Origin: Hydrogenophaga aromaticivorans
Lineage (GTDB): Bacteria; Pseudomonadota; Gammaproteobacteria; Burkholderiales; Burkholderiaceae_C
Length of the DNA stretch: 64,000 nt
Assembly (NCBI RefSeq): GCF_013387465.1
Contig: NZ_VYGV01000016.1
Location: forward strand, 244,872 to 308,871
Direction: 5' to 3'
Of the stretch, positions 37,581-62,006 are shown piece after piece (position 1 is the stretch's first letter; every line of letters starts with the position of its first letter). The position numbers and the translations under genes are program-made. Under the pieces are notes generated by a model. It was not told the origin of the DNA, did not search any database, and worked only from the letters and a program-made list of their open reading frames with translations.

Positions 37581-37608
37581 TGTAAGGAGATAGCCACGCT
37601 GGACGACT
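37581..37608 (+). promoter_or_regulatory. ECF-type promoter motif upstream of arsS
   Basis: TGTAAGG (37581-37587), 16 bases, CGACT (37604-37608), 37 bases before the arsS start codon. It is identical in both boxes to motifs before the VTT oxidoreductase and hbdH genes (same spacing), and before bufA and the second ECF sigma gene (one base shorter). Confidence 0.75.
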
Positions 37609-37645
37609 GAGAAACATTTCGCTGATCAACTCGTTCACCCGCCTT

Positions 37646-38692
37646 ATGCACGACACCCTGCCGCTGCTCACCGCCACCGACTTCCCCGCCATCAGGCGCC
37701 GCGCTCTGAATACGTTGCAAGTCAACCTCGGTTACCGCTGCAACCAGTCCTGCCTGCATTGCCACGTCAATGCCGGCCCCAACCGCACCGAGATGATGGA
37801 GGCGGACACGGTGGACATGGTGATCGAGGTGCTGCAGGCGCGGGGCATCAGCACGCTGGACCTCACCGGCGGCGCGCCGGAGCTCAGTGCCCACTTCAGG
37901 CGCCTGGTGGTGGCGGCCCGAGCCCTCGGTGTCGAGGTGATTGACCGCTGCAACCTGACCATCCTCAGCGAGCCTGGCCAAGACGGTCTGGCCGCCTTTC
38001 TGGCCGAGCAAGGCGTTCAAGTGGTGGCTTCCATGCCGTGTTATTCCCCGGCCAACGTCGACCGCCAGCGGGGCGATGGCGTGTTCGACCTCAGCATCAC
38101 CGGGCTGCAGCAGCTCAACGCACTGGGTTACGGCGCCGAGGGCAGCGGCCTCACGCTGAACCTCGTCTACAACCCACAGGGTCCGTCATTGCCACCACCC
38201 CAGGGCGCGCTGGAAGCCGACTACAAGCGTGAACTGTTGCAGCACTTCGGCATCCGCTTCAACCACCTTTTTGCGCTGACCAACATGCCGGTGCAGCGTT
38301 TCGGCAGCACCCTGGTGTCCAAGGGCACATTCGCCAGCTACATGCAACTGCTGCGCCAGGCGTTCCAGGCCGACAACCTGGAGACCGTGATGTGCCGCTC
38401 CATGATCAGCGTGGACTGGCAGGGCGATCTCTACGACTGCGATTTCAACCAGATGCTGGGGTTGCCGGCCCGCCTGGGCAAGGCCTACCGTCCGCACTTG
38501 CGGGACCTGCTGAAGGCCAACCCGGAAGGCGAATCCATCCGGATCGCCGACCACTGCTACGGTTGCACCGCAGGCCAGGGCAGCAGTTGCGGTGGCGCGC
38601 TGGAGTCGGCCGGCATTGCCACCGCGACCGTTTCTGTTCGTGCCGTGCACAACGGCCTCGCCCAACCCGTTTCATCTGGAGACCACCCATGA
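37646..38692 (+). CDS. arsS: Arsenosugar biosynthesis radical SAM protein ArsS
   Basis: This 348-residue enzyme has the radical SAM cluster CNQSCLHCH (CxxxCxxC) near residue 32 and the SAM-binding LDLTGGAPEL. A cysteine-rich C-terminal auxiliary region (DCDFNQMLG; HCYGCTAGQGSSCGG) identifies the DUF3641/ArsS family. ArsS is linked to attaching the 5'-deoxyadenosyl group to methylated arsenic on the way to arsenosugars. No arsM methyltransferase is present in the window. It is the first gene of a seamless operon, with overlapping stops and starts, preceded by an ECF-type promoter motif. Confidence 0.92.
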   Translation: MHDTLPLLTATDFPAIRRRALNTLQVNLGYRCNQSCLHCHVNAGPNRTEMMEADTVDMVIEVLQARGISTLDLTGGAPELSAHFRRLVVAARALGVEVIDRCNLTILSEPGQDGLAAFLAEQGVQVVASMPCYSPANVDRQRGDGVFDLSITGLQQLNALGYGAEGSGLTLNLVYNPQGPSLPPPQGALEADYKRELLQHFGIRFNHLFALTNMPVQRFGSTLVSKGTFASYMQLLRQAFQADNLETVMCRSMISVDWQGDLYDCDFNQMLGLPARLGKAYRPHLRDLLKANPEGESIRIADHCYGCTAGQGSSCGGALESAGIATATVSVRAVHNGLAQPVSSGDHP

Positions 38693-39555
38693 CCGTGTTT
38701 ACCCGCTGGCTTGCCGGCCTGTTCCTGCTGCTCGCAGCGCTTTCCGCACAGGCGCAAATCACGCCGTTGAAATTCGGTGTTGGCCTGTTTCAGCCCGATC
38801 GGGAACGCAACGATGCCACCTACCGGCCGCTGGCTCAGCACCTGTCCCAGCGGCTGGGCCGACCGGTGGAGCTGCGCACGGTCGACAGTTGGGAAGGATT
38901 GGCCAAGTCGCTGGCCAACGGCGAGACCGATCTGGCCCTGATGGGCCCCTGGGGTTATGTGCTGGCCAACCAGGCTGCCGATGCCCAGGTGGTCTCGACC
39001 ATCCTGTACGAAGGCAAGCCCGAGTACTTCGCCATGATCATCACCCACCCGGACTCCGGCATTCAGTCGGTGGCCGACCTCAAAGGCCGGACCTTCGCCT
39101 TTGGCGACAAGGGCTCCACCTCCGGCTACCTGATTCCGCTGCACTTCTTCATGAAGCAAGGCATCGATCCCGCGAAGCATTTTTCTCGCGTGCTGCACAC
39201 CAAGCACCAGGCGATCCAGACCCAGGTCACCGCCGGGCAGATCGACGCCGGCGCCGACTACAACCGCAACCGCGACGCCATGATCGCGCAAGGCCTGATC
39301 AAGGCCGAGCGCTCGAAGATCATCTGGCAGTCAGACCCGTTGCCCAACGACGCCTTCGCGGTCAGCGAGGCGCTCTACAAGGACAAGGCCTTCGTGGCGC
39401 GCCTGCAAGCCGCACTGGCCGAGGTGGGCCCCTTGCTCAAGACGCAGCCGAATTTGCTGCCGCCAAATTACACCGGCTTCATCCACAGCGACAACCGGGC
39501 CTACAAGCCGATCCGTGACGCGGGCCTGGCCACCGGCATCCTGCAACCCAAGTGA
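38689..39555 (+). CDS. Phosphate/phosphonate-type ABC transporter substrate-binding protein
   Basis: This 288-residue PhnD/PtxB-like periplasmic protein has a signal peptide (1-23, cut after LSAQAQ). It shows PhnD-type segments LKFGVGLFQPDRERNDATYRPL, DLALMGPWGYVLAN and KGRTFAFGDKGSTSGYLIP. In arsenosugar clusters this family may bind an arsenic analogue of phosphonate or phosphate, which is an inference from context. It overlaps the arsS stop and the permease start by 4 bases on each side. Confidence 0.9.
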   Translation: MTVFTRWLAGLFLLLAALSAQAQITPLKFGVGLFQPDRERNDATYRPLAQHLSQRLGRPVELRTVDSWEGLAKSLANGETDLALMGPWGYVLANQAADAQVVSTILYEGKPEYFAMIITHPDSGIQSVADLKGRTFAFGDKGSTSGYLIPLHFFMKQGIDPAKHFSRVLHTKHQAIQTQVTAGQIDAGADYNRNRDAMIAQGLIKAERSKIIWQSDPLPNDAFAVSEALYKDKAFVARLQAALAEVGPLLKTQPNLLPPNYTGFIHSDNRAYKPIRDAGLATGILQPK

Positions 39556-40448
39556 GTGCGCTACAGGTCCACCCAGCGATCTGGCCATGGCGGTGGTCGG
39601 GCCGGGCACGCTTTGCGCTGCTGGTGCTGGCCTATGCACTGCTGGTCGCGGTGTGCCTGGGCAGTCTCTGGGCGGCGGGCGAGCTGTCGATGGGCCGCAA
39701 CCCCGTGGCCAACCTGATCAAGTCGATCGGCGAGTTCGCTTACCCGAGTTTTCTCGATGTGTGGTTCGGGTCTGAACGGTTGGAATACCGCAGCGATGAT
39801 GGCTCCCTGCTGCGTGTGGAGAACCGCCGCGTGGTGGAGGCCGATTTTCTGGCGGCGCTGGGGCGAGCGACCTGGGTCACGTTCCAGATCGCCACCCTGG
39901 GTTCGTTGCTGGGCGCCGTGCTGGCCTTGCCATTGGGCCTGTTGAGTGCGCGCAACCTGGGTGCGCCGCGCTGGCTGGCCTGGGCAAGCAAAGGCCTGCT
40001 CGACGTGCTGCGCGCGATCCACACCCTGGTGTTCGGTCTGGTGCTGGTCGGCATCGTCGGCCTGGGCCCGACCGCCGGCATCCTGGCGATTGCGCTGCAT
40101 TCCATGGGCACCTATGGCAAGTTGTACGCCGAGTCGGTGGAGTCGCTGGACATGGGCGCCATCCATGCCGTGCAGGCCACTGGGGCATCGCGCACCCAGG
40201 TCTTCTTCAACGCCGTGTGGCCCGCCGTGCTGCCCCAGTTCGTGTCGAACCACCTCTACATCTGGGAGTTCAACATCCGCGACTCGACCATCCTCGGCCT
40301 GATTGGCGCCGGTGGCCTGGGCCTGCTGATCTCCGAGGCCGTGAGCCTGTTCCAGTGGAGCCGCCTGGCCACCATCTTGCTGGTCGTCATTGCCCTGGTG
40401 GTGGTGTTCGACACCTTGTCGCGGCGTATCCGTCAGGCGTTGCTGTGA
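39552..40448 (+). CDS. ABC transporter permease, PhnE/PtxC family
   Basis: This 298-residue permease has about six membrane segments. The EAA-type coupling motif is in YAESVESLDMGAIHAVQATGASRTQVFFNAVWP. The N-terminal part has a conserved periplasmic loop found in PhnE-type permeases (FAYPSFLDVWFG). It works as a dimer with the following ATPase. The overlap with the ATPase start (GTGA) implies coupled translation. Confidence 0.9.
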   Translation: MSALQVHPAIWPWRWSGRARFALLVLAYALLVAVCLGSLWAAGELSMGRNPVANLIKSIGEFAYPSFLDVWFGSERLEYRSDDGSLLRVENRRVVEADFLAALGRATWVTFQIATLGSLLGAVLALPLGLLSARNLGAPRWLAWASKGLLDVLRAIHTLVFGLVLVGIVGLGPTAGILAIALHSMGTYGKLYAESVESLDMGAIHAVQATGASRTQVFFNAVWPAVLPQFVSNHLYIWEFNIRDSTILGLIGAGGLGLLISEAVSLFQWSRLATILLVVIALVVVFDTLSRRIRQALL

Positions 40449-41302
40449 CACCCGACATGCACGCCATCGATATCCGCGATCTGGCCGTGAAGGCCGGCGC
40501 GCGAACCTTGCTGCGGCTGGACGAACTTTGCATCACTGCGGGCGAGCGGGTGGCCATCGTTGGACACAACGGCGCAGGCAAGTCGACCCTGCTGCGGGTG
40601 ATCGGCGGCCTGCTGACCCCCACCGAAGGCACGGTCCATGTGCTGGGACGCGACCTGCAACAGCCGGTGCCCGATCTCGCGCTGCGCGTCTGGCGAAGCC
40701 AGGTCGGCCAGGTCATGCAGGGCCTGCACATGGTGGCCCGGCTGAGCGCACGAGAGAACGTGCTGATCGGCGCCCTGGGGCGCCTGAGCGGCTGGCGAAG
40801 CTGGAGCCGCCTGTACCCGGCTGCGCTGGTGGCCGAGGCCGACGAGGCGCTTGCCCTAGTCGGCCTACAGGGAAAGGGCGACATCCGCACCGACCGGCTC
40901 TCCGGCGGCGAGCGGCAGAAGCTCAGCATCGCGCGCCTGTACCTGCAGCGCCCGCGCCTGATCCTGGCCGACGAGCCCACCGCCAACCTGGACCCGGCCG
41001 CCGCCGCCGATGCCTGCCAGTGGCTGGGCAGCGTCGCCCGGGGCGCGACGCAAATCACCGTGGTGCACCAGCCCGCGCTGCTGCCCCTGCTGGCCGACCG
41101 GGTGATCGGCCTGCGCGAGGGCGCGCTGGTGTTCGATCTGCCCACCGCCGACGTTGATTCAGCTCGACTGGATGCGCTCTACGAACCGGGTGCACAGGGC
41201 AACCGACCGACCCTGGACGTTTTCTCTCGCCTTTCGTCGTCGGCGCCACCGGCCACGACACGTCGCCCGTCCGTAGGCACCGCGGCCTGCCAGCCAGGCT
41301 GA
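40445..41302 (+). CDS. ABC transporter ATP-binding protein, PhnC/PtxA family
   Basis: This 285-residue ATPase has Walker A GHNGAGKST, signature LSGGERQKLSIARLYLQ, Walker B LILADEPTANLD and the switch His in VVHQPALLPLL. The start is GTG 40445 (overlapping the permease stop) or ATG 40457. The last about 45 residues after the nucleotide-binding domain are Ser/Pro/Thr-rich and unusual. It completes an importer with the two preceding genes. Confidence 0.9.
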   Translation: MTPDMHAIDIRDLAVKAGARTLLRLDELCITAGERVAIVGHNGAGKSTLLRVIGGLLTPTEGTVHVLGRDLQQPVPDLALRVWRSQVGQVMQGLHMVARLSARENVLIGALGRLSGWRSWSRLYPAALVAEADEALALVGLQGKGDIRTDRLSGGERQKLSIARLYLQRPRLILADEPTANLDPAAAADACQWLGSVARGATQITVVHQPALLPLLADRVIGLREGALVFDLPTADVDSARLDALYEPGAQGNRPTLDVFSRLSSSAPPATTRRPSVGTAACQPG

Positions 41303-41317: not shown

Positions 41318-42340
41318 ATGACTCTGGAAGTTCTTCTCCCAACCGCCAAGGCCGCCTCAACGACCCATGACCCGACGGCTGCGGTCGCCGGCAGAAGCTG
41401 CCCGCTGCACTACCGCTATGCGCCATCGGTGTTCGCCAGCGAGGCGCCGGAGCGTTTGTCCGGGCTCGATGTGCTCTACGTCGTGGGCGGCCTTTACGGC
41501 AACGAGGCCGCGCTGAAGCGCGTGGTCGAGCTGTTTGAGCGGGAACGTGGGCGCGCTCGCATGGTCTTCAACGGCGACTTCCACTGGTTCGACGCCGAGC
41601 CCGCCATGTTCGCCCGCATCCAGCAGACGGTGTTGCGCTTCGATGCTTTGCGGGGCAATGTGGAAACAGAACTGGCCGACGAGAGCCGTGACGGCGATGC
41701 GGGCTGCGGTTGCGCTTACCCCGACTGGGTGGGGGACCTGGTGGTTGAACGGTCCAACCGCATCCACAAGACACTGCGAAGTTGCGTGACGCCCGAACAG
41801 CGGCACGAACTGCGGGCCTTGCCGATGTGGCTGCGCGCTGATGTCGGCCCGTTGCGCCTGGGTCTGGTGCATGGCGACGCGCAGTCACTGGCCGGCTGGG
41901 GCTTTGCCCAGGAGCACCTGCGCGATGCCCGGCACCGCGAGCAGGTCGGGCGCTGGTTCGACGAGGCCGGCGTGCATGCCTTCGCCAGCACCCACACCTG
42001 CCTGCCTATTTTTCAGCGCCTGCCTTCCGGGCCGCAAGCCCAGGCACGCTGGGTGTTCAACAACGGTGCCACCGGCATGCCCAACTTTCAGGGTGATGCG
42101 GCGGGCCTGATCACGAGAATCGCGCGCACGCCGTTCACGGGTGCCGAGCGGCGGCTCGGCGTGGTCGAGTGTGGGGTTCACATCGACGCCATCGCCATCG
42201 AGACCGACACCACCGCCTGGCAGACACAGTTTCAGCAACTGTGGCCCGAGGGCAGCGATGCCCACGCCTCGTACTTCAACCGCATCCAGCACGGCCCGGC
42301 CTACCAGCCGCAGGACGCCGTGCGTCAAGAGGAGAACTGA
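41318..42340 (+). CDS. Calcineurin-like metallophosphoesterase of the arsenosugar cluster
   Basis: This 340-residue protein belongs to the metallophosphoesterase superfamily. Metal-site motifs are modified but recognisable: VVGGLYGNEAAL (in place of GDxHG), FNGDFHWFD (GDxxD-like), GNVETELAD (GNH region), LVHGDAQSLAGWGF and STHTCLPIFQR. An internal CGCAYPDWVGD segment is notable. It may dephosphorylate a sugar intermediate in the pathway. It lies 15 bases after the ABC ATPase and 3 bases before the phosphorylase, in one operon. Confidence 0.83.
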   Translation: MTLEVLLPTAKAASTTHDPTAAVAGRSCPLHYRYAPSVFASEAPERLSGLDVLYVVGGLYGNEAALKRVVELFERERGRARMVFNGDFHWFDAEPAMFARIQQTVLRFDALRGNVETELADESRDGDAGCGCAYPDWVGDLVVERSNRIHKTLRSCVTPEQRHELRALPMWLRADVGPLRLGLVHGDAQSLAGWGFAQEHLRDARHREQVGRWFDEAGVHAFASTHTCLPIFQRLPSGPQAQARWVFNNGATGMPNFQGDAAGLITRIARTPFTGAERRLGVVECGVHIDAIAIETDTTAWQTQFQQLWPEGSDAHASYFNRIQHGPAYQPQDAVRQEEN

Positions 42341-42343
42341 ACC

Positions 42344-43189
42344 ATGCTCGCCATCATCGGAGGCACCGGCCTCTACGAACTCGACGGCCTCGACATCCAT
42401 GAACGCCAGGGCGGCGACACGCCGTTCGGAACGCCATCGGGTGAGGTCTTGCGCGGCACGCTGCATGGTCAAGAGCTGCTGTTTCTGGCTCGCCATGGGG
42501 CAGGGCACCGGTTGCTGCCGCACGAGGTGAACTACCGCGCCAACGTGTATGCGCTCAAGCGTGCCGGTGCCACCATGATGCTGGGCTTCTCGGCCGTGGG
42601 CAGCCTGGCCATGGAAGTCGCACCCGGCGACCTCGCCATGCCGGAGCAATACATTGACTGGACACGGGGCGCGCGCGAGCGCACCTTCTTCGGTGGCGGT
42701 GTTGCGGCGCATGTCTCCACCGCCAAGCCGGTGAGCGGTGCGCTGGTCGACTCGGTTGTGGTGGCCGCTGAACGGGCCGGGCTGTCGGTGCACCGGGGTC
42801 TGACCTACGCCTGTGTGGACGGTCCTCGCCTGGGCACGCAGGCCGAGAGCCATCTGCTGCGCCAGATGGGTTGCCACCTGGTGGGCATGACCAACGCACC
42901 CGAGGTGTTTCTGGCGCGTGAAGCCCAGATGGCCTATGCCACCGTGGGGCTGGTCACCGATTACGACTGCTGGCTCGACGACCCCACGCAACACGTCAGC
43001 GTGTCCGCCGTGTTCGAGCTCTACGGCCAGAGCCTGGCCAAAGCCCGGCGCCTGCTGGACGCGCTGTTGTCGGGCGCGCTGCCGGTGCCTGAGACGTCCA
43101 TCCGCACAGCGCTCACAGGGGCGCTGCTCACACCCGACGAAGCGATGTCCGAGGCCCAGAGAACATGGGTTTCCCAACTGCGGGCGTGA
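42344..43189 (+). CDS. MTA/purine nucleoside phosphorylase family
   Basis: This 281-residue phosphorylase has the family segments IIGGTGLYELDG, ARHGAGHRLLPHEVNYRANVYALK, and CVDGPRLGTQAESHLLRQMG followed by TDYDCWLDD. MTAP-type enzymes cleave methylthioadenosine or purine nucleosides with phosphate. In arsenosugar clusters the enzyme would remove adenine from the 5'-deoxy-5'-arsenoadenosine made by ArsS, allowing replacement by a sugar aglycone. That role is inferred from context. It is the last gene of the rightward operon and converges with the glycosyltransferase at 43203. Confidence 0.88.
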   Translation: MLAIIGGTGLYELDGLDIHERQGGDTPFGTPSGEVLRGTLHGQELLFLARHGAGHRLLPHEVNYRANVYALKRAGATMMLGFSAVGSLAMEVAPGDLAMPEQYIDWTRGARERTFFGGGVAAHVSTAKPVSGALVDSVVVAAERAGLSVHRGLTYACVDGPRLGTQAESHLLRQMGCHLVGMTNAPEVFLAREAQMAYATVGLVTDYDCWLDDPTQHVSVSAVFELYGQSLAKARRLLDALLSGALPVPETSIRTALTGALLTPDEAMSEAQRTWVSQLRA

Positions 43190-43202: not shown

Positions 43203-43880
43203 TCACTTCTGACCGCCAGACTCGGTCTGCAAGGCCAGCCCTTGCTGCAGAGGCGCCTCGGCGGCTGCCAGCCAACCCGCTGGTAGCCTGCTCAGGTCGT
43301 CGGGCTCATCCATGTCGTGCAGCGTGGGCAAAGTGACCAGGCGCCAGCCCAGCAGAGCGATCCGGGACTGCGTCGCCTGCGCCACGCTGGACGTGCTCCA
43401 GGCAATGTCCTGGAACAGGCTGGCATCGAAGCGGTTCAGCGCCAGCAAAACATAACCACCGTCAAAGGCCGGCACGAGGGCGGCATCGTTGGTGCGCAGG
43501 CCGTCCGCCGCCGCTCGAATCCGCTCGGCGGAAAGTTCCGGGCAATCGGTCCCCATCAACAGCACCGGGCGGCCCGCATCCAGCACGCGCCGTGCAGCGC
43601 GCGCCATGCGCTCACCCAAGTCGCCCTGTCCCTGATCGCTCAGGCTCAGCGCCGCGTGCTGTGGCAACAGCCCCGACCACGTGGGGTCTTGAGGTGCCGG
43701 CGTGACGCACACCTCCACGGTGCCCACCCCGCAGGCCAGCGCCTGTTCCACCGCATGTTTCAACATCGAGGCGGCGAGGCGGGCGGCGCCCGTGGCACCC
43801 AATGCCGGAATCAGTCTCGTCTTGGCAAGACCTGCGACGGGGGCTTTGGCGAAGACGATGATGTGGGCAGTGTTGACCAT
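43203..43880 (-). CDS. Arsenosugar-cluster glycosyltransferase A-type (DUF2064/TIGR04282)
   Basis: This 225-residue protein has a GT-A-like nucleotide-sugar fold. The N-terminal IIVFAKAPVAGLAKTRLIPALG is the hallmark of this family, and LLMGTDCPELSAERIRAA and VPAFDGGYVLLAL give the metal/nucleotide site. It follows the second glycosyltransferase by 7 bases on the same strand and converges on the arsS operon. It probably activates or transfers a sugar in arsenosugar assembly. Confidence 0.88.
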   Translation of the reverse strand: MVNTAHIIVFAKAPVAGLAKTRLIPALGATGAARLAASMLKHAVEQALACGVGTVEVCVTPAPQDPTWSGLLPQHAALSLSDQGQGDLGERMARAARRVLDAGRPVLLMGTDCPELSAERIRAAADGLRTNDAALVPAFDGGYVLLALNRFDASLFQDIAWSTSSVAQATQSRIALLGWRLVTLPTLHDMDEPDDLSRLPAGWLAAAEAPLQQGLALQTESGGQK

Positions 43881-44579: not shown

Positions 44580-45626
44580 TCAGGGCAGGTTGTCGGTGAA
44601 ACGGTAGAAGAAGTTGCCATCAATGAAACCATGTTCACCGACGACGTGTTCAAAGAAACCAAACTGCATGAGGCGGTGCAGGATCAACTGGCTCTCATGG
44701 CGTGTGATGTTGCGCTTGGCGCACAGCACGTCCACCGCCTCTTGGCCGATCCAGCAGCTCGGGTAGTCCTTGCCGAGGTAGCTGCGGTCCACCACCACCA
44801 GCCGGTCGCGCAGGGTCTGCAAGACCAGGCCAAGGTTGACGTTGGGCAACTGGGCCGGCGCGCGCAGGCGGAAGAACAGGGCCTCGTCGGCGAACACCTG
44901 TTCGTGCGCCACGTGGTACAGCAGGCCCAACGACTGCAGAGCCTGCCCGACCTCGACCGCCTGCGGACTGTCCAGCCGGAAATGCGAGCGTATCCATTGC
45001 ACCGCTTCTGAGGCGAGGAAGCAGGCGGGGTATTTCTTGAGGTGGTAGCTGCGGTCGCGGATGTCGAGCTTGAACTGCAGCAGGTCCGCCAGCGCTTCGG
45101 CGTCCAGTCCGGTGCGGGCGCGGATGAGCGCGCGGGGCGACAGGCTGGATGGTGCTGTGGGGACGGCACGCAGGTAGCGGTCAAGCTCGTCGGCGGCCAG
45201 CGCAGGCAAACCCACGTTGGACGCGACCCGGTCCAACGCCTGTCGCAAGGGCGATGTCGGCCCGCGGTCAACAAACGAGGCGATCAGGTCGGCAAAGCCC
45301 AGCGACTGCACCCAGGTGCGGTCAGCCGGGCTGACGTGGCCGGCTGCCAGCCGGGTCAGCAGCGTGCGCGCCCTGAGCGCCTGCGGCCAGGTCTTGAGGA
45401 TGCGATCGAACCGATGGGTGACCCTGGGCAGGGCGTTCGACACATCCAGGAACACCAGCGCGTGCGGGTCCAGGGCCAGGCGTTCCAGCTGTTCGGAGAG
45501 CGCAGCGCCTGGCGGCGGCAGGTTCACCGGGATGCATTGCAGGGCCAGCAGGCCGGCGCGCAGGGCGTCGCGGTCGGGGCCGTCGGGCAGTTGCAGGTAA
45601 ACCTGCGGGGCGGGTGTCTTGGCCAT
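44580..45626 (-). CDS. Two-DEP-domain protein
   Basis: This 348-residue protein has an N-terminal about 150 residues resembling a degenerate response-regulator or Rossmann fold (VYLQLPDGPDRDALRAGLLAL; LVFLDVSNALP). Two DEP domains follow (about 165-250: LDIRDRSYHLKKYPACFLASEAVQWI; about 260-345: LVVVDRSYLGKDYPSCWIGQEAVDVL). DEP domains commonly mediate membrane association and signalling. It lies 13 bases downstream of the membrane oxidoreductase, suggesting functional partnership. Confidence 0.85.
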   Translation of the reverse strand: MAKTPAPQVYLQLPDGPDRDALRAGLLALQCIPVNLPPPGAALSEQLERLALDPHALVFLDVSNALPRVTHRFDRILKTWPQALRARTLLTRLAAGHVSPADRTWVQSLGFADLIASFVDRGPTSPLRQALDRVASNVGLPALAADELDRYLRAVPTAPSSLSPRALIRARTGLDAEALADLLQFKLDIRDRSYHLKKYPACFLASEAVQWIRSHFRLDSPQAVEVGQALQSLGLLYHVAHEQVFADEALFFRLRAPAQLPNVNLGLVLQTLRDRLVVVDRSYLGKDYPSCWIGQEAVDVLCAKRNITRHESQLILHRLMQFGFFEHVVGEHGFIDGNFFYRFTDNLP

Positions 45627-45639: not shown

Positions 45640-47790
45640 TCAGCCTCGGCGCCAGGCGTGGTAACGGCCCAACCAGGCGAGTACGCGCTGGGGTGCGTGG
45701 GCGCGCTTCCACTCGCCGGCCGCGTACTTGTTGGCCTCGGCCAGCGTGGGGTAGGTGTGGATGGTGCCCAGGATCTTGTTCAGGCCGAGGCCGTGTTTCA
45801 TCGCCAGCACGAACTCGGCCAGCAGGTCACCCGCGTGTTCGCCCAAGATGGTCACGCCCAGGATACGGTCCTTGCCCGGCACGGTCAGCACCTTGACGAA
45901 GCCGTGCGCGGAGCCGTCGGCGATGGCGCGGTCCAGGTCGTCGATGCCGTACTTGGTGACCTCGTAGGGGATGTTCTTTTCCTTGGCGTCCTGTTCGTTC
46001 AGGCCCACGCGCGCCACCTCGGGTTCGATGAAGGTCGCCCAGGGGATGACCGAATAGTCGACCTTGAATTTCTTGAAGCTGCCGAAGAGGGCGTTGACGG
46101 CCGCGTACCAGGCCTGGTGCCCGGCGGTGTGGGTGAACTGGAACGGCCCGGCCACGTCGCCCGCGGCAAAGATGTTGGGGTACAGCGTTTCGAGGTATTC
46201 GTTGACCACCACCGTGCGCTGCGTGGGGATGCCCAGTTCTTCCAGCCCGTAGCCTTGCAGCCGCGCCACGCGGCCGACCGCGCAGAGCAGCGCGTCGAAC
46301 TCGATGCGCTTTTCCTGGCCCTGGTGTTCCACCACGATGAACTTGCGGTCCCCCTCGCGCTCGCAACGCAGCGCCTTGTGCGCCGTGAGCACGGCCACAC
46401 CGTCGCGCTGCAACGAGTCGCGGGCGAGGTCGGACACCTCCTGGTCTTCCCGGATCATGATGCGCGGCGCCATCTCCACCTGGGTGACCTGTGAGCCCAG
46501 GCGCGCAAAGCTCTGCGCCAGCTCACAACCAATCGGACCACCGCCCAGCACCACCAGGCGCGCCGGAGGCGCGTCCATCTGGGCGAATTCGTCCCACAGG
46601 GTGTCGCTGGTGACGTAGCCCACGTCGTCCAGTCCGGGCAGCGGTGGCACGAAGGGGCGGGCACCGGCGGCGATGACGATGCTGCGCGTGGTCAGGCGCT
46701 GGGTGCCCCCGTCGTTGAGGGTGACTTCGACCGTCCAGGGATCGACGATGCGGGCGCGCCCTTGCAGCACTTCAACCCCCAGCCCGGTGTAGCGCTCCAC
46801 GCTGTCGTGGTGCGCGATCTCGCTGATGACCTGGTGCACACGGGCCATCACCTGCCGAAAGCTGAAGGCGGGTGTTGCGGCCTCCAGGCCGTAGTGATCG
46901 GCCCGGCGCATCTGGGTCGCGAGCTTGGCCGACTTGATCAGTGCCTTACTGGGCACGCAGCCGAAGTTCAGACAGTCGCCGCCCATCTTGTGCGCTTCGA
47001 TCAACGTGACCTTGGCCTTGACCGCCGCAGCGATGTAGGAGGTGACCAGGCCCGCCGCGCCGGCCCCGATGACCACTAGGTTGCGGTCGAAGGTTTTGGG
47101 CCGCTGCCAGCGGGCGTAAACACGCCGGCGTTGCAGGAAACCGAGGGCGGCTTTGGCGATCATGGGAAAGACTCCGAGCAGGACAAAGGACATCAGCACG
47201 CCGGGCGACAGGATGCCCGAGAGGCTGGAGAGCTGGGCCAGCTGGGTGCCGGCGTTGACGTAGACCAGGGTGCCCGCGAGCATGCCCAGCTGGCTGACCC
47301 AGTAGTAGGTGTCGGTGCGGATGGGTGTCAGCCCCATGAGCAGGTTGACCAGGAAGAAGGGGAACACCGGGATCAGGCGCAGGGTGAACAGGTACAACGC
47401 GCCGTCCTTGGTCATGCCATCGTTGATGGCCTTGAGCCGGTCGCCAAAGCGCGCCTGTACGCTGTCGCGCAGCAAATACCGCGAGGCCAGAAACGCCAGC
47501 GTGGCGCCCAGGCTGGAGGCGAACGAGACGATCAGCGTGCCGCCCGCCAGACCGAACAGAGCGCCGGCCGCCAGGGTGAGGATGACCGCGCCGGGCAGGG
47601 ACAGGGCGGTGGCCAGCACGTACAGACTGAAAAACCCGAGCGCCGTGGCGATGGGGGATGCCTGACGCAGGGCTTCGAAGTCGACCAGACGATCCTGCAC
47701 GGCGGCGAGGGTCAGGTACCGGTCCAGCCCGAGCCCAAAATAGGCGACCACCAGCAACACGACGGTGGCAAGGATCAGTGTTCTTTTCAT
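45640..47790 (-). CDS. Fusion of VTT (DedA-like) membrane domain with FAD/NAD disulfide oxidoreductase
   Basis: This 716-residue protein has a first about 230 residues that form a VTT/SNARE-associated membrane domain with several transmembrane helices (GFFSLYVLATALSLPGAVIL; FTLRLIPVFPFFLVNLLMG). The rest is a class I flavin disulfide reductase: FAD motif VIGAGAAGLVTSYIAA, redox pair in GGDCLNFGCVPSK, NAD motif VVLGGGPIGCELAQSFARLG and the dimerisation-domain HTYPTLAEA. It resembles mercuric reductase but lacks the N-terminal metal-binding domain and the C-terminal Cys pair, so Hg(II) reduction is doubtful. I chose the start at MKRTLIL because the ECF-type promoter lies inside the longer open frame. 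Confidence 0.9.
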   Translation of the reverse strand: MKRTLILATVVLLVVAYFGLGLDRYLTLAAVQDRLVDFEALRQASPIATALGFFSLYVLATALSLPGAVILTLAAGALFGLAGGTLIVSFASSLGATLAFLASRYLLRDSVQARFGDRLKAINDGMTKDGALYLFTLRLIPVFPFFLVNLLMGLTPIRTDTYYWVSQLGMLAGTLVYVNAGTQLAQLSSLSGILSPGVLMSFVLLGVFPMIAKAALGFLQRRRVYARWQRPKTFDRNLVVIGAGAAGLVTSYIAAAVKAKVTLIEAHKMGGDCLNFGCVPSKALIKSAKLATQMRRADHYGLEAATPAFSFRQVMARVHQVISEIAHHDSVERYTGLGVEVLQGRARIVDPWTVEVTLNDGGTQRLTTRSIVIAAGARPFVPPLPGLDDVGYVTSDTLWDEFAQMDAPPARLVVLGGGPIGCELAQSFARLGSQVTQVEMAPRIMIREDQEVSDLARDSLQRDGVAVLTAHKALRCEREGDRKFIVVEHQGQEKRIEFDALLCAVGRVARLQGYGLEELGIPTQRTVVVNEYLETLYPNIFAAGDVAGPFQFTHTAGHQAWYAAVNALFGSFKKFKVDYSVIPWATFIEPEVARVGLNEQDAKEKNIPYEVTKYGIDDLDRAIADGSAHGFVKVLTVPGKDRILGVTILGEHAGDLLAEFVLAMKHGLGLNKILGTIHTYPTLAEANKYAAGEWKRAHAPQRVLAWLGRYHAWRRG

Positions 47791-52954: not shown

Positions 52955-52981
52955 AGTCGCCGCCTTTCCGCGATCCTTACA
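52955..52981 (-). promoter_or_regulatory. ECF-type promoter motif upstream of bufA1
   Basis: On the minus strand TGTAAGG (52981-52975), 15 bases, CGACT (52959-52955). It implies sigma-factor control of the bufferin operon. Confidence 0.72.
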
Positions 52982-53050: not shown

Positions 53051-53078
53051 TGTAATGATTGGCTTGTGCGCAGCGACC
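53051..53078 (+). promoter_or_regulatory. Variant ECF-type promoter motif upstream of nrtS-ECF sigma genes
   Basis: TGTAATG (53051-53057), 16 bases, CGACC (53074-53078). It differs by one base in each box from the common motif and lies 162 bases before the first gene, suggesting weaker autoregulation. No gene is credible in 52983-53240. Confidence 0.55.
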
Positions 53079-53240: not shown

Positions 53241-53465
53241 ATGCAGACTTTTTTTGGCACGGTGTTTTCCAGGCCCATCGTGGTGGGCGCTTTGCGTGTG
53301 TCGTTCGTCGTGGGCTGCGTGCTCAATCTGATCAACCAGGGCGAGGCGTTCTTCTCCGGCGGGCCCATTGCCTGGGGCCACGTGCTGCTGAACTTCCTGG
53401 TGCCGTATGCCGTGTCCAGCTACAGCGCGGCACGCAATCAGTTGTCGAACAGGACCACACCATGA
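53241..53465 (+). CDS. NrtS-like small membrane protein
   Basis: This 74-residue protein has two membrane segments (VVGALRVSFVVGCVLNLIN; WGHVLLNFLVPYAVSSYS) and the NQGEAFF loop. It matches the family named nitrate/nitrite transporter NrtS, whose role is little tested. GGAG precedes ATG 53241. Its stop overlaps the ECF sigma start. Confidence 0.8.
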   Translation: MQTFFGTVFSRPIVVGALRVSFVVGCVLNLINQGEAFFSGGPIAWGHVLLNFLVPYAVSSYSAARNQLSNRTTP

Positions 53466-54100
53466 GCGCCGGCAAGACCATGCCCACGGGTTCGCAGGAC
53501 GTTGCTTCTCACGCACAGGAGGTCGATCCGGCCGAGCTGAGCGCTCTGCGGGGCAAGATGGTCAAGTTCGCGTCCCTGCAGCTGGGAGACCCGCAACTGG
53601 CCGAAGACGCAGTGCAGGAAGCCCTGATGGGGGCCTTCAGGAACACGGCAGCCTACGCCGGCAAGGCCAGCCTCAAGACCTGGGTCTTCGCCATCCTGAA
53701 AAACAAGATCACCGACATCCTGCGGCTGCGCCAGCGTCAGCGCCTGGTCTCGATCCATCAACCAACGGGCGATGCCGACGAGGAGGCCGATCTCTCCGAA
53801 CTGTTCAACGGCCGAGGCATGTGGGAATCCGACGAACGCCCCGCGACCTGGGGCAACCCGACCGAGACCTTGCATGACAAACAGTTCTGGAAGGTGTTCG
53901 AGCTGTGTCTGGAAGGACTTCCAGGCCAGCAAGCCAAGGTGTTCATGATGCGTGAATACGTGGGCCTGGATGCGCGCGAAGTCTGCAGCGAGGTGGGCAT
54001 CACCTCGACCAACCTCAACGTGATGCTGCACCGGGCGCGCTTGCGCTTGCGCGAGTGTCTGGAAGACCGCTGGTTTGCACGGGGAGGTGCATCATGTTGA
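53462..54100 (+). CDS. ECF RNA polymerase sigma factor (first of two)
   Basis: This 212-residue sigma factor has region 2 (DAVQEALMGAFRNTAAYAGKASLKTWVFAILKNKITDILR) and region 4 with its helix-turn-helix (REYVGLDAREVCSEVGITSTNLNVMLHRARLRL). It overlaps the following anti-sigma gene. It belongs to the ECF group regulated by small zinc-finger anti-sigma proteins. Either this factor or the one at 56428 probably reads the TGTAAGG/CGACT promoters. Confidence 0.92.
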   Translation: MSAGKTMPTGSQDVASHAQEVDPAELSALRGKMVKFASLQLGDPQLAEDAVQEALMGAFRNTAAYAGKASLKTWVFAILKNKITDILRLRQRQRLVSIHQPTGDADEEADLSELFNGRGMWESDERPATWGNPTETLHDKQFWKVFELCLEGLPGQQAKVFMMREYVGLDAREVCSEVGITSTNLNVMLHRARLRLRECLEDRWFARGGASC

Positions 54101-54330
54101 ACTGCCGTGAAGTGACCCGCCTGGTGTCCGAGTCGCAGGAGCGAAAACTGTCGGTTGTCGAGAAGATGTCGCTCAACCTGCACCTGATGATGTGCGACGG
54201 CTGCAAGAACTTCAGCCTGCAGGTGCCGTTTCTGCGCAAGGCCATGAAGGCCTATTCCGAGCGCCTGGACGATGTGATCGAAGACCACGGCGCAGCGCCC
54301 CCCCCGGACAAGGAAGGCAAGGACACATGA
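54094..54330 (+). CDS. Zinc-finger anti-sigma factor (zf-HC2/ChrR-like)
   Basis: This 78-residue protein has the zinc-binding anti-sigma motif HLMMCDGCKNF (HxxxCxxC) after an N-terminal CREVTRLVSESQERKLS. It has no membrane segment, so it is a soluble thiol sensor. Loss of zinc on oxidation or metal binding would release the sigma factor. It overlaps the genes on both sides. Confidence 0.9.
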   Translation: MLNCREVTRLVSESQERKLSVVEKMSLNLHLMMCDGCKNFSLQVPFLRKAMKAYSERLDDVIEDHGAAPPPDKEGKDT

Positions 54331-54902
54331 GCTTCTTCAAATCGCTGCCCGAGGATGCGGGCGTGCGCCATATCCTGACGCTCAACCCCCAGGCCGGGCG
54401 TGCACTGGTCGAGTTCCACACCGCCGCGCTGCGTAACGAGGGGCCGCTGGAGCCGCGGCACAAGGAACTGATTGCGGCCTACGTCTCCGGGCTCAACGCC
54501 TGCCAGTACTGTTTTGGCGTGCACGCCGAGACCGCCAAGGCGTTCGGGCTGGAGGCCGGCACGCTGGAGCGCCTGCTGGCGGACATCGACAGCGCCGACG
54601 TGGACGAGCGGCTCAAGCCGCTGCTGCGCTACGCGCGCAAGCTCACGCTGGAGCCCTCGCGCATGACCGAAGCTGATGCGCAGGCGGTGTTTGCTGCCGG
54701 CTGGAGCGAAGCAGCCCTGCACGAGGCCGTGCTCACGGTGTGCCTGTTCAACTTCATGAACCGGTTGCTTGAGGGGCATGGCGTGAAAGGCAATCCGGGC
54801 GTGTTTTCTGCGCGGGGTCAGGCCTTGCGTGATGAGGGCTACGAACCCTTGCTGGCGTTTCTGGACGCAGCGGCTGCGCCACCCTCCGCCCATCGCGTTT
54901 GA
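54327..54902 (+). CDS. Peroxidase-related AhpD-like protein
   Basis: This 191-residue carboxymuconolactone-decarboxylase-fold protein has the redox motif NACQYCFGVH (CxxC followed by His), as in alkylhydroperoxidase AhpD. It is co-transcribed with the sigma/anti-sigma pair, which points to a role in peroxide or thiol stress. Confidence 0.88.
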   Translation: MSFFKSLPEDAGVRHILTLNPQAGRALVEFHTAALRNEGPLEPRHKELIAAYVSGLNACQYCFGVHAETAKAFGLEAGTLERLLADIDSADVDERLKPLLRYARKLTLEPSRMTEADAQAVFAAGWSEAALHEAVLTVCLFNFMNRLLEGHGVKGNPGVFSARGQALRDEGYEPLLAFLDAAAAPPSAHRV

Positions 54903-56200: not shown

Positions 56201-56431
56201 TCAACGCTCGCCCGGACTGCGCGGGTCAGGTTCTTCATCCAGATCCAGATCGAGCGCACCGAGCTGAGGCACCAGTTCGTGCAGCTTGGCCATTTGTTTC
56301 TCGACTTCCTGACAATCGCCGCACATCGTGAGGTGGATGCGCAGCCGCATCTGATCGGTCAGGTCCAGTGGTTCATCCAGTGCCTGGGACATGAGTTCAG
56401 CGGCCCGCTCACAGGAATGAAAGAGGTTCAT
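56201..56431 (-). CDS. Zinc-finger anti-sigma factor (second pair)
   Basis: This 76-residue protein has the motif RIHLTMCGDCQEVEKQM (HxxxCxxC) and an N-terminal CERAAELMSQALDEPL. The acidic end has DLDLDEEPD. Its ATG overlaps the sigma gene stop. It is similar in design to the anti-sigma at 54094. Confidence 0.9.
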   Translation of the reverse strand: MNLFHSCERAAELMSQALDEPLDLTDQMRLRIHLTMCGDCQEVEKQMAKLHELVPQLGALDLDLDEEPDPRSPGER

Positions 56432-57039
56432 GCGGCGCTCCGGACGGTGTGGCCATGTGAGGTCATGCATTGGCGCAGGCCCATGCGGGCGCGGTGCAGC
56501 ACCATGCGGCAGTTGTCGGCGGTGAGGCCCAGCCGTTCGCAGATTTCAGATGTCTCGAACCCCAGCCACTCGCGCATCATGAACACACGACCGGTCTGTG
56601 CCGGTAGATGGCGCAAGCAGGCTTCCAGGGTCGACATGATCTGGCGCTGCGCTTCGCGACCTTCCGGCTGTTGCCAGGCGGGCACAGGCTCCAGGTAGCT
56701 GCCCTGTTCGTTGAAGAGTCCTTCGGTGGGGTCACCTTCGTCTTCGTCGGTGGCGTTGTAAACCCGCCGCCGCTGGTGGGGCGAACGGTACCAGTCGGCG
56801 ATCTTGTTCTTCAGGATGGCGGTGGCCCAGGTGGTGAGTGAGGCTTCGCCGCGGTGGGCTTGCGGGCTCTCCAGCACGCTCATCAGGGTTTCCTGCGCCA
56901 GGTCTTCGGCGAGTGCAGGCTCGTGCACCACCATGCGGGCGTGGCGAATCAAGCGCTGTCGCAAAGGTGTCCACGGATCTTTGACAGGGGTCGAATCGGT
57001 GGTCGGGATCGACGGGAGGGTGTCAGTCAAGGGCTTCAT
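56428..57039 (-). CDS. ECF RNA polymerase sigma factor (second)
   Basis: This 203-residue factor has region 2 (EDLAQETLMSVLESPQAHRGEASLTTWATAILKNKIADWYR) and region 4 (REWLGFETSEICERLGLTADNCRMVLHRARMGL). It is related to the sigma factor at 53462. It has an exact TGTAAGG/CGACT motif 62 bases upstream, which makes it the best candidate for an autoregulated factor that also drives the other copies of the motif. Confidence 0.92.
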   Translation of the reverse strand: MKPLTDTLPSIPTTDSTPVKDPWTPLRQRLIRHARMVVHEPALAEDLAQETLMSVLESPQAHRGEASLTTWATAILKNKIADWYRSPHQRRRVYNATDEDEGDPTEGLFNEQGSYLEPVPAWQQPEGREAQRQIMSTLEACLRHLPAQTGRVFMMREWLGFETSEICERLGLTADNCRMVLHRARMGLRQCMTSHGHTVRSAA

Positions 57040-57100: not shown

Positions 57101-57127
57101 AGTCGTTCGAAGTGCTCAGGCCTTACA
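57101..57127 (-). promoter_or_regulatory. ECF-type promoter motif upstream of the second ECF sigma gene
   Basis: On the minus strand TGTAAGG (57127-57121), 15 bases, CGACT (57105-57101). Confidence 0.75.
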
Positions 57128-59843: not shown

Positions 59844-59871
59844 TGTAAGGATGCAAGGCGCGGCAGCGACT
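59844..59871 (+). promoter_or_regulatory. ECF-type promoter motif upstream of hbdH
   Basis: TGTAAGG (59844-59850), 16 bases, CGACT (59867-59871), 49 bases before the start codon. The boxes match those of arsS exactly. Confidence 0.72.
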
Positions 59872-59920: not shown

Positions 59921-60721
59921 ATGGCCCTCTCATCCGTCCACCGCGGCACAAAGACCGCACTCATCACTGGCTCCACCAGCGGCATCGGCCTGGGCATCGC
60001 CACCGCCCTGGCCGCAGCGGGACACGACGTGGTGCTCAACGGTTTTGGCGAGACTGCAGCCATCGAACAATTGCGCGCCGAGCTGTCTCAGCTGCACGGC
60101 GTGAACGTGCGCTACAGCGGTGCCGATCTGTCCGATCCGGTCGCCACCGAGGCCATGATGGAAGAAGCCATCGGTGCCTGCGGCGCCATCGACATCCTGG
60201 TGAACAACGCCGGCATTCAGCACGTGGCGCCGGTGGACGAGTTTCCGGTGGAAAAATGGAACGCGATCATCGCGATCAACCTGTCGGCCGCGTTCCACAC
60301 CACGCGGCTGGCCTTGCCCGGCATGAAGGCCAGAGGCTGGGGCCGGGTGCTCAACGTGGCCTCGGCCCACGCATTGGTGGCGTCGCCGTTCAAGTCCGCT
60401 TACGTCGCGGCCAAACACGGCATCGCCGGGTTCACCAAGTCGGTGGCGCTGGAAGTGGCCACCCAGGGCATCACCGCCAACGCGCTGTGTCCGGGCTATG
60501 TGTGGACGCCGCTGGTGGAAAAGCAGATTCCCGACACGGCCAGGGCGCGCGGATTGACCGAGCAACAGGTGATCGACGATGTGCTGCTGCACGCGCAGCC
60601 CACCAAGCAGTTCGTCACCATCGAGCAGGTCGCAGCGTTTGCGGCCTTCCTGTGTTCCAACGCCGGCGCCAGCATCACCGGAGCGGTGATGCCCATCGAC
60701 GGTGGCTGGACGGCGCAATAA
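59921..60721 (+). CDS. 3-hydroxybutyrate dehydrogenase (SDR)
   Basis: This 266-residue short-chain dehydrogenase has the NAD motif TGSTSGIGLGIA, NNAG (VNNAGIQHVAP), the catalytic Ser in NVASAHALVAS and the YxxxK in SAYVAAKHG. The sequence LCPGYVWTPLVEKQIPD is typical of bacterial hydroxybutyrate dehydrogenases, which turn 3-hydroxybutyrate into acetoacetate during polyhydroxybutyrate use. It is followed after 16 bases by a patatin, as in other Burkholderiales. Confidence 0.92.
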   Translation: MALSSVHRGTKTALITGSTSGIGLGIATALAAAGHDVVLNGFGETAAIEQLRAELSQLHGVNVRYSGADLSDPVATEAMMEEAIGACGAIDILVNNAGIQHVAPVDEFPVEKWNAIIAINLSAAFHTTRLALPGMKARGWGRVLNVASAHALVASPFKSAYVAAKHGIAGFTKSVALEVATQGITANALCPGYVWTPLVEKQIPDTARARGLTEQQVIDDVLLHAQPTKQFVTIEQVAAFAAFLCSNAGASITGAVMPIDGGWTAQ

Positions 60722-60737
60722 CGGAAGGCGGTTCGAC

Positions 60738-61943
60738 ATGGCCACACGCGCAAGCACACCATCCACAAACACCCGCGCAGCCGCCAAAGCGGTTGCCAAC
60801 AAGGCGGCACGGTCCCCGGCGGACGCGCCGAATCCGAACTGTCCACCCCAGCAGACCGTGATGGTCATGCAGGGCGGTGGCGCCGTGGGGGCGTTTCATC
60901 TCGGTGTCTACCAGGCCCTGCACGAAGGCGGCAAGGAGCCAGACTGGGTCATCGGCACGTCCATCGGCGCGATCAACGCGGCGCTGATCGCCGGCAACCA
61001 TCCCCAGCACCGGCTGGCGCGGCTGCGGGCCTTCTGGGAACGCATGCAGTCCCGGCGGGCCAGCCACAGTGCCTTTGCGCTGTGGCCCTCGCTGGCCGGG
61101 ATGGCGCAGTGGCAACACAACCTGGGTGTGGTGGGGCAGGGCATCCCCGATTTCTTCAAGCCGAATCTGCCGGCCTGGTTCAATCCGCGACAGGTAGTGG
61201 GCATAGAGCGAGCCGCGTACTACGACACGCAACCGCTTCGCGACACACTGGACGAGCTGGTGGACTTTGACGTCCTTGCGCGTTCGCCCATGCGCATCAC
61301 GGTGGGCGCTGTCAATGCGCGCACCGGTCAGATGCGGTATTTCGACAGCCGGCACGAGCGTCTCAACTTGGATCACATCATGGCCTCGGGTGCGCTGGCG
61401 CCGGCCTTCGGCGCGGTGCGCATCGACGGCGATCCGTACTGGGATGGCGGGCTGTACTCGAACACGCCGATCGAGGTGGTGCTGGACGACAAGCCGCGCT
61501 GCGACTCGCTGATCTTTGCCTGCCGGCTGTGGGAGCCGCACGGCGACGAACCGCAAAGCCTTTGGGACGTGCAGGGCCGCCTGAAGGACATCCAGTTCGC
61601 CAGCCGGGCCGAATCGCACATCGAACGCCAGCGGCAGCTGCACCGGCTGCGCCACATCATCCGCGACCTGGCCCGACAGGTGCCCGACAGCGCCCATGCC
61701 CGCGAGCTGGGTGCCTGGGGTTGCAACACCGTGATGCACGTCGTCAGCCTGATGGCGCCGCACCTGCCCGGCGAAGACCAGACCAAGGACATCGACTTCA
61801 CGCCCCGCGGTGTGCACCTGCGTACGGACGCCGGGTTGAAGTTGGGGCGCCAGGCGCTGGCGGAGAAGTTGTGGGAGGCGCCGCACGACCCGCTGGAAGG
61901 CGTTTGCGTGCACCGGGTTCACCTGGACCCAGCGGCTGCATAG
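60738..61943 (+). CDS. Patatin-like phospholipase (DUF3734 type)
   Basis: This 401-residue lipase has the oxyanion loop MQGGGAVGAFHLGVYQAL, nucleophile Ser in GTSIGAIN and catalytic Asp in WDGGLYSNTP. The first about 40 residues are Ala/Lys/Thr-rich, like phasin tails (AAAKAVANKAARSPAD), which may target polymer granules. The C-terminal DUF3734 region is present. It may hydrolyse polyhydroxybutyrate or lipids, feeding the dehydrogenase beside it. Confidence 0.9.
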   Translation: MATRASTPSTNTRAAAKAVANKAARSPADAPNPNCPPQQTVMVMQGGGAVGAFHLGVYQALHEGGKEPDWVIGTSIGAINAALIAGNHPQHRLARLRAFWERMQSRRASHSAFALWPSLAGMAQWQHNLGVVGQGIPDFFKPNLPAWFNPRQVVGIERAAYYDTQPLRDTLDELVDFDVLARSPMRITVGAVNARTGQMRYFDSRHERLNLDHIMASGALAPAFGAVRIDGDPYWDGGLYSNTPIEVVLDDKPRCDSLIFACRLWEPHGDEPQSLWDVQGRLKDIQFASRAESHIERQRQLHRLRHIIRDLARQVPDSAHARELGAWGCNTVMHVVSLMAPHLPGEDQTKDIDFTPRGVHLRTDAGLKLGRQALAEKLWEAPHDPLEGVCVHRVHLDPAAA

Positions 61944-61978
61944 CCAGCGGGCACCGCGGTTGATGTGTCATGGGTGCC

Positions 61979-62006
61979 TGTAAGAGAAGCCCACCTTCGC
62001 GCGACT
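61979..62006 (+). promoter_or_regulatory. ECF-type promoter motif upstream of the thioredoxin/CcdA operon
   Basis: TGTAAGA (61979-61985), 16 bases, CGACT (62002-62006), 36 bases before the thioredoxin start. One mismatch in the first box. Confidence 0.68.

Follow-up and report, generated by a model that had tools for sequence, protein, structure and literature searches.

A candidate ECF sigma promoter motif connects an arsenosugar cluster with bufferin, thiol and hydroxybutyrate genes in Hydrogenophaga aromaticivorans

Introduction

It is, to our knowledge, not settled for what purpose bacteria produce arsenosugars or what switches on the genes concerned. This question is raised by a 64,000-nucleotide stretch of the Hydrogenophaga aromaticivorans genome (assembly GCF_013387465.1, contig NZ_VYGV01000016.1, positions 244,872 to 308,871; hereafter the window), in which the arsenosugar-biosynthesis gene arsS and several unrelated operons are preceded by the same two-box motif, TGTAAGG-N15/16-CGACT. 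A sequence-only reading of the window had proposed that the motif is a shared promoter of the extracytoplasmic function (ECF) sigma factor type, one that would place the arsenosugar cluster in a group with bufferin, thiol and hydroxybutyrate genes. The analysis presented here bears this proposal out at the level of comparative sequence, by which the regulon appears well supported, and relates the candidate regulon to sigmaE/MseR-type control, a known kind.

Motif sites in the window and the genome

We searched for the motif with its reversed pattern as a control and 100 dinucleotide shuffles as a null. Five exact sites were found in the window, all where the sequence-only reading had placed them, and no shuffle out of 100 contained any. 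With distances taken from the end of the putative −10 box to the start codon (at some congener loci the script took another in-frame start), they lie 37 nt before arsS (37581..37608, + strand), 60 nt before an operon that begins with a VTT-oxidoreductase gene (47851..47878, −; conserved in the congener G348), 72 nt before a bufferin operon (52955..52981, −), 61 nt before the sigma factor gene ECF2 (57101..57127, −; also before ECF2 in G348) and 49 nt before the 3-hydroxybutyrate dehydrogenase gene hbdH (59844..59871, +; also in G348 and G304). A sixth site, 36 nt before a thioredoxin-like gene, trx (61979..62006, +; also in G348), has the single mismatch noted earlier, its box reading TGTAAGA. 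The six distances span 36–72 nt, in keeping with the 36–75 bases first read. Two variants had been put forward as well. The first, at 53051..53078 (+) before the operon of nrtS, the sigma factor gene ECF1, anti-sigma 1 and a CMD gene, has two mismatches (TGTAATG...CGACC; its boxes read TGTAATGATT...CGACC) and is probably real, both boxes being conserved across six genus genomes. The second, before a DUF4148 gene near 57638, reads TGTCACG/CGACC, which by reading of the sequence amounts to three mismatches, and was dropped as unsupported.

The whole 5.63-Mb genome, scanned like the genus genomes with fixed patterns and not with a matrix, contains seven exact sites. Those beyond the window are C21:795374, which precedes a second bufferin operon (homologues of DUF2282, MNIO, DUF2063 and DoxX; locus L142 1643-4400, G000:C21:792.6-795.4 kb), and C22:476273, which lies 28 nt before the methionine-sulfoxide repair gene msrB. 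The relaxed pattern KGTAAGR-N15/16-CGACY yielded 16 sites where its reverse yielded 8; among the 16 are sites 24 nt before a second VTT-flavoreductase gene, 23 nt before a gene for an MsrP/YedY-like molybdopterin protein and 50 nt before an EgtD-like methyltransferase gene, with further ones before a DUF1223 gene and beside the third sigma gene. Three relaxed matches were left out of the promoter count (L027, inside ECF3; L034, antisense within a gene; L256, antisense at a two-gene junction), and the candidate promoters in the genome number some 12–13. When two mismatches were allowed, matches became rarer than those of the reversed control (N15: 63+81 versus 189+195; N16: 59+56 versus 144+147), so that only near-exact or conserved sites are meaningful.

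The motif upstream of arsS in other genera

Of the 299 genomes in the window's family, 39 contain an ArsS that scores above its cut-off, and the window protein finds its best named matches among Burkholderiales such as Rubrivivax. Within 380 nt upstream of arsS, 21 of 30 family loci (the window's own included) have a site with no more than two mismatches; among 80 named loci the number with such a site is 28, compared with 2.0% in shuffles. We then ran an unbiased dyad search over 105 non-redundant upstream sequences, obtained from 110 arsS loci by removing two in which the ArsS signature was not found (L172 and L221) and three that were redundant; all 5-mer-gap-4-mer dyads with gaps of 15–19 nt were counted, with 20 shuffles as the null. 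The two top dyads, TGTAA-N17-CGAC and GTAAG-N16-CGAC, occur 21 times each, and the best dyad in the shuffles 5–7 times. In its strict form, GTAAG-N16/17-CG(A/T)C, the motif is present in 42 of the 105 upstreams in the sense direction and in 6 antisense (shuffled mean 0.07), and 29 of these 42 sense sites lie 120–137 nt before the radical-SAM cysteines. By source, the strict motif occurs in 20 of 30 family loci and in 23 of 78 named ones. Judging by their titles, three of these 23 are gammaproteobacterial (Marinobacterium, Thalassolituus, Competibacteraceae), and we take the rest to be mostly betaproteobacterial. The 70% redundancy cut leaves shared ancestry among the upstreams; their spacers nonetheless differ freely.

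Sigma genes are also found beside arsS itself. Before filtering by tree, 19 of the 80 named loci held 20 sigma genes within 10 kb of arsS; the sigmas of L169, L186 and L218 were dropped because the tree places them in another clade, which leaves 17 TIGR02943-clade genes in 16 loci. From three such genes per 5.63-Mb genome, about 0.7 would be expected by chance in the 1.36 Mb of locus sequence, a rough figure given that the thresholds differ. In 11 of the 80 loci a TIGR02943-clade sigma/anti-sigma pair stands at most 2 kb upstream of arsS, on the same strand in nine and divergently in two, and six of the 16 sigma-neighboured loci carry the strict motif directly before arsS. Sigma, anti-sigma, arsS and bufferin-operon genes occur together in each of the loci L161 and L224, and in L160 a frame that reads as MsrA-like lies between the sigma pair and arsS. 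The signature C-x25-H-x3-C-x2-C, in which a cysteine stands 26 residues before the histidine of H-x3-C-x2-C, is found in all 20 anti-sigma frames near arsS, the three of the other clade included. As a separate observation, the other-clade sigmas of the gammaproteobacterial loci L186 and L218, each with a ZAS-type anti-sigma, lie divergent from arsS at 196–288 nt and are possibly a further sigma link to this gene.

What is new here is that the motif ranks first among the dyads upstream of arsS and that sigma/anti-sigma pairs adjoin arsS. Among the matches listed, a search of the open-licence PMC literature returned no paper in which arsenosugar genes are linked to an ECF sigma factor, and none combining the letters of the motif with the term 'ECF sigma'.

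Position and conservation within the genus

Across 60 genomes of the genus, the exact motif occurs 45 times in 19 genomes and its reversed pattern 42 times in 31. Among the 35 motif sites with loci, 16 were classified as upstream of a gene, 7 as inside a gene, 11 as other and 1 as unplaced; the corresponding numbers for 30 reversed-pattern sites are 1, 24, 4 and 1. The upstream excess (Fisher p 1.2e-4) comes from a single crude gene classifier that puts several clear upstream sites, such as those of bufferin genes, under 'other' or 'inside'. An equal frequency inside genes, which the sequence-only reading had named as telling against it, is hence not what this classifier shows.

Viewed singly, 28 congener loci place exact sites before msrB in 10 cases, before a catalase-like gene in 5, and in one case each before a VTT-flavoreductase gene, hbdH, ECF2, a bufferin gene and EgtD-like, TlpA-like and SelD-like genes, while six (L113, L114, L118, L120, L122, L128) show no clear downstream gene. 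Single examples of these target genes were checked by Pfam and the others assigned by sequence likeness, the EgtD-like gene solely by its likeness to that of the own genome. Relaxed sites in six congeners recur before genes that, by how they begin, resemble msrP (G302, G336), egtD (G312, G348), the second VTT gene (G343, G312, G336, G348) and the DUF1223 gene (G302). G348 carries the motif at trx, hbdH, ECF2, the bufferin operon and the VTT operon, as in the own genome, and G304 at hbdH, the bufferin operon and a VTT gene. In the divergent region between the bufferin and nrtS-ECF1 operons, six genus genomes (the own included) keep TGTAA and CGACTACA while the spacer changes, and on the opposite strand TGTAA(T/C)GA and the CGAC box are kept before nrtS-ECF1. 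Because both boxes form conserved islands in these genomes, the 53051 variant is likely to be a genuine ECF1-operon promoter.

Comparison with known sigma systems

The motif very probably represents the −35/−10 promoter recognised by TIGR02943-kind ECF sigma factors under the control of small zinc-thiolate anti-sigma factors, as in Neisseria sigmaE/MseR and Haemophilus RpoE2/HrsE. According to the accessible text of PMC2893595, the sigmaE consensus of Neisseria meningitidis consists of a −35 box GTMAGBWTT and a −10 box CGTCTAAH with 12–13 nt between them. This spacing puts 15–16 nt between GTMAGB and CGTC, as in GTAAGG-N15/16-CGACT; the −10 core CGTCT is one base apart from the CGACT found here, and CGTCTAA itself is present in the arsS relatives L090, L098, L104 and L162. 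The same text assigns Cys4, His30, Cys34 and Cys37 to MseR, which are the residues of anti-sigma 1 in the window, and has sigmaE control its own operon with a DoxX-like gene as well as msrA/msrB. By position, the motif here precedes what would be an MseR-type target set, namely both bufferin/DoxX operons, msrB and the msrP-like gene. The Neisseria promoter search, as described in that part of PMC2893595, arrived at two transcripts only, compared with some 12–13 candidates and three paralogous sigmas here, and unlike the Neisseria regulon our candidates include the arsenosugar cluster, the egtD-like gene, the VTT-flavoreductases and hbdH. TIGR02943 membership was measured for ECF1 and ECF2, and Neisseria sigmaE is likened to them by promoter layout, anti-sigma and targets.

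Haemophilus influenzae RpoE2/HrsE shares the ZAS-type anti-sigma with the system described here. It controls msrAB, a DoxX/DUF2063/UPF0276 operon and the periplasmic reductase MtsZ, and acts under hypochlorite; the accessible part of PMC7907618 notes neither a promoter consensus nor arsenosugar genes. To judge by their protein families, the DoxX operons of Neisseria and Haemophilus would be of the bufferin type. Because the box layout and the MseR-like anti-sigma residues are shared, the candidate targets correspond and no NrsF was found, the system is best described as a putative sigmaE/MseR-type control of msr and DoxX operons with an enlarged regulon that would include arsenosugar genes. 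Cupriavidus metallidurans offers a further parallel: its gigPABT-rpoQ-rsqA locus, like the window, has an ECF sigma/anti-sigma pair that lies divergent from an operon of the bufferin type, and is induced by copper and gold. The locus differs in that, as far as the accessible text of PMC10304878 goes, no gig promoter was identified, RsqA is predicted to be membrane-bound and dependence on RpoQ was not shown.

Candidate readers and alternative explanations

The genome encodes three TIGR02943-kind paralogues, so that control by the one stress sigma factor initially envisaged is not supported. Besides ECF1 and ECF2 there is ECF3 (L028, G000:C3:47.6-48.2 kb), assigned by 44% identity to ECF1 and by the tree, not by an NCBIfam scan of its own. 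Of the three, ECF1 seems to us, if tentatively, the one most likely to read the arsS, bufferin and own-operon promoters, because its nearest relatives outside the genus are arsS-adjacent sigmas: it groups with L156, L160 and L164 (a Hydrogenophilales bacterium, Pseudogulbenkiania and Caldimonas) with support 97/90, a weak argument in that the outside-genus sigmas of the tree are arsS-adjacent ones only. Other arsS-adjacent sigmas are scattered through the tree, partly with weak support, some of them nearer ECF2 or ECF3. The motif might instead belong mainly to ECF3, with msrB and the catalase-like gene as its targets across the genus, so that ECF1 and ECF2 would have other targets and the window sites would be cross-read or inherited. 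An ECF3-like match (42–49% identity to ECF1) is indeed found in 46 of the 60 genus genomes, the own included; congeners whose sole match at E<=1e-30 is ECF3-like still have exact sites before msrB and the catalase-like gene; and in G324 an exact site adjoins ECF3. Presumably the ECF3-like gene accounts for the exact sites in genomes that lack ECF1. As a separate observation, the motif in G343 lies about 0.7 kb from its ECF3 copy, at a gene that reads like a bufferin precursor. We nevertheless consider it unlikely that the motif is mainly an ECF3 promoter, given that exact sites are concentrated in the ECF1-bearing genomes (23 of the 45 in 6 genomes, compared with 22 in the remaining 54), that ECF1 and not ECF3 clusters with L156, L160 and L164, and that the ECF1 and ECF2 operons themselves bear the motif, exact before ECF2 and as the conserved variant before nrtS-ECF1, which makes both candidates for auto-regulation. 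ECF2 and ECF3 probably overlap with ECF1 in promoter reading.

The sequence-only reading had likened the boxes to promoters of the SigF type, and the Caulobacter system is similar in several respects: as given in the accessible text of PMC3511200, its sigmaF recognizes GTAACC-N16-CGAA, with two DUF2282/DUF692/DUF2063 operons and a YedY gene under its control, so that GTAA/CGA layout, bufferin-type operons and YedY are all shared with the system here, and a 2025 survey of MNIO proteins reports sigma factors and NrsF within Buf1 clusters (PMC12452194, in the part available). Exact GTAACC-N16-CGAA, moreover, precedes arsS in 3 of 108 upstreams from other loci (L100, L148, L149; 0.025 expected in shuffles), 131–135 nt before the cysteines, a position used elsewhere by the sigmaE-type motif; if these sites are real, arsS would be wired to both sigma types known to control bufferin-type operons. 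The two systems differ, however, in the Caulobacter anti-sigma NrsF (DUF1109) and GTAACC/CGAA boxes on one side and ZAS-type anti-sigmas and GTAAGG/CGACT boxes on the other. A search of the whole genome for NrsF (PF06532/DUF1109) gave no match, with the Caulobacter positive control detected; both anti-sigmas of the window are small zf-HC2/ZAS proteins, and the boxes match the Neisseria consensus (PMC2893595, accessible part). We therefore rejected a SigF identity for this genome, and that a SigF/NrsF system reads these sites is exceedingly improbable; the closest kind is sigmaE/MseR and RpoE2/HrsE. It is likewise very improbable, if slightly less so, that some unrelated repressor or activator binds at the motif, or that its sites form a family by chance in GC-rich DNA. 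Loose matches do behave like noise, yet the spacing is fixed at 15/16 with a free spacer, the sites are placed upstream of genes and recur before arsS in many genera, divergent copies stand before the sigma operon, and the layout is identical to the published sigmaE consensus.

Several observations weigh against assigning the motif to TIGR02943-kind sigma factors and arsS to their regulon. The strict motif is missing from 63 of the 105 arsS upstreams and from 10 of the 16 sigma-neighboured loci; among these ten are the six loci titled as gammaproteobacterial groups, and the ten include L172, whose ArsS signature was not found. A sigma-neighboured arsS of this kind may be read from further upstream. 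The raw number of exact sites in the genus is barely above that of the reversed pattern, and relaxed matches in six congeners (51) fall below their reversed control (115); the genus counts of 45 and 42 by themselves say nothing, and it is position and conservation of orthologous sites that carry the case. A single exact site is all that three of the six ECF1 genomes contain, and genomes of one genus do not count as independent samples. With three paralogues, the reader of each individual site is uncertain. Finally, deletion of rpoQ in metal-treated C. metallidurans raised gig expression and did not lower it (PMC10304878, accessible part).

Genes of the window

The arsenosugar cluster consists of two convergent operons. 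On the + strand, arsS (37646..38692; TIGR04167, 459 bits, cut-off 300) is followed by genes for a PhnD-like substrate-binding protein, an ABC permease and an ABC ATPase (38683..41302; PF12974, PF00528, PF00005; TIGR01098), for a 340-aa protein matching no Pfam or NCBIfam model, which occurs near arsS in many relatives (41318..42340), and for a homologue of MTA/purine nucleoside phosphorylases (42344..43189; PF01048; TIGR01694 MTAP 272 bits, just below the cut-off of 274.85), which could remove adenine in the arsenosugar pathway. On the − strand lie genes for the arsenosugar glycosyltransferases TIGR04282 (DUF2064; 43203..43880; 199 bits, cut-off 134) and TIGR04283 (43888..44562; 281 bits, cut-off 182), a DEP-domain protein (44580..45626; PF00610) and a VTT domain fused to a mercuric-reductase-like FAD oxidoreductase (45640..47790, start at 47790; PF09335, PF07992, PF02852). 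ArsS, TIGR04282 and TIGR04283 all score above their cut-offs, as expected of an arsenosugar cluster. The mercury-transport genes merP and merT lie at 48245-48911, between the VTT-oxidoreductase and bufferin operons, with no motif site of their own.

The bufferin operon, also on the − strand, encodes a bufferin precursor (52562..52882; DUF2282, PF10048), the MNIO bufferin maturase BufB (51539..52516; NF050167, 375 bits, cut-off 310), a DUF2063 (BufC/HvfC-like) protein (50772..51590; PF09836) and a DoxX protein (50188..50775; PF07681). In its leader (52915-52950, −), a sequence of the kind TGCAAGCCCA...GGCGAGCA is kept in six genus genomes amid varying surroundings and is possibly an RNA element or the site of a second regulator. 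Divergent from it on the + strand are the genes for an NrtS-like small protein (53241..53465; NF038050), ECF1 (53462..54100; TIGR02943, 232 bits, cut-off 162), anti-sigma 1 of the ZAS type with C4/H30/C34/C37 (54094..54330; NF052368, 77 bits, cut-off 50) and a peroxidase-related CMD/AhpD protein that overlaps the end of anti-sigma 1 (54327..54902; TIGR01926). ECF2 (56428..57039, −; TIGR02943, 177 bits, cut-off 162) is paired with anti-sigma 2 (56201..56434, −; PF13490), likewise of the ZAS type and with the same C-x25-H-x3-C-x2-C signature. Each anti-sigma gene follows its sigma gene directly on the downstream side.

Further along the + strand, hbdH (59921..60721; TIGR01963, 370 bits, cut-off 307) is followed by a gene for a patatin-like phospholipase (60702..61943; PF01734, PF12536), which probably belongs to the same operon. 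Directly after the hbdH promoter, at 59880-59895, the leader contains the perfect short hairpin CAAGCCATGTGGCTTG, which recurs unchanged in G348 and with a single difference in G304. The last motif site precedes the thioredoxin-like gene (62043..62423; PF00085) and a gene for a CcdA/DsbD transmembrane protein, given here as an open frame whose start is not fixed (62269..63171; PF02683).

Discussion

The boxes, their spacing, position and conservation, the neighbouring genes and the geometry of the anti-sigmas can be read from the sequences themselves; from these we infer the pairing of sigma and promoter, the signal and induction itself. In the mechanism we propose, zinc bound by the anti-sigma cysteines would be displaced or oxidised by oxidants, Cu(I), As(III) or other thiol-reactive agents, whereupon the freed sigma would start transcription a few bases past CGACT. 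The targets would comprise the sigma genes themselves, the two bufferin (copper-peptide) operons, msrB and msrP for the repair of oxidised methionine, thioredoxin/CcdA, the two VTT-flavoreductase genes, the egtD-like gene, hbdH-patatin and, from the arsenosugar cluster, both of its convergent operons. A zinc-thiolate anti-sigma that answers alike to oxidants and to soft metals or metalloids would account for the use of one switch by genes for arsenic, copper and methionine repair.

The arrangement suggests that a redox and metal stress signal governs the arsenosugar pathway. No ArsM scored above the cut-off in this genome by NF008823, the one ArsM model searched (best match 65 bits, partial). 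Among 29 other ArsS genomes, some of them incomplete, the same model gave 1 match above the cut-off, 9 at 163–247 bits and 19 below 80 bits. The lack of an NF008823-type ArsM here, together with the scores below 80 bits in those 19 genomes, could point either to a role in redox or metal defence or to the use of methylated arsenic from outside. One could go further and suppose, as a speculation that we hold to be possible though rather doubtful, that the ArsS pathway of these proteobacteria is primarily an output of thiol-oxidation and soft-metal stress, wired by lineage to a sigmaE/MseR-like or a SigF-like sigma, and not an arsenic-sensed detoxification, with a product that serves envelope redox or copper defence. 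On that supposition, the product would act alongside bufferins, Msr enzymes and ergothioneine-type thiols; it would be an arsenosugar, or else a related compound derived from an adenosyl group whose synthesis involves no recognisable ArsM. Arsenite itself might then trip the switch by capturing the cysteines of the anti-sigma.

As for the promoter itself, the motif allows a joint regulon to be predicted one promoter at a time, comprising copper-binding peptides, methionine-sulfoxide repair, thiols and VTT-flavoreductases; it is also a candidate promoter for gig-like loci, for which the C. metallidurans study, in its accessible text, could identify none (PMC10304878). The recurrence of a redox-type promoter and of sigma pairs beside arsS would provide a testable answer to what turns arsenosugar genes on, and may offer a hint as to their purpose.

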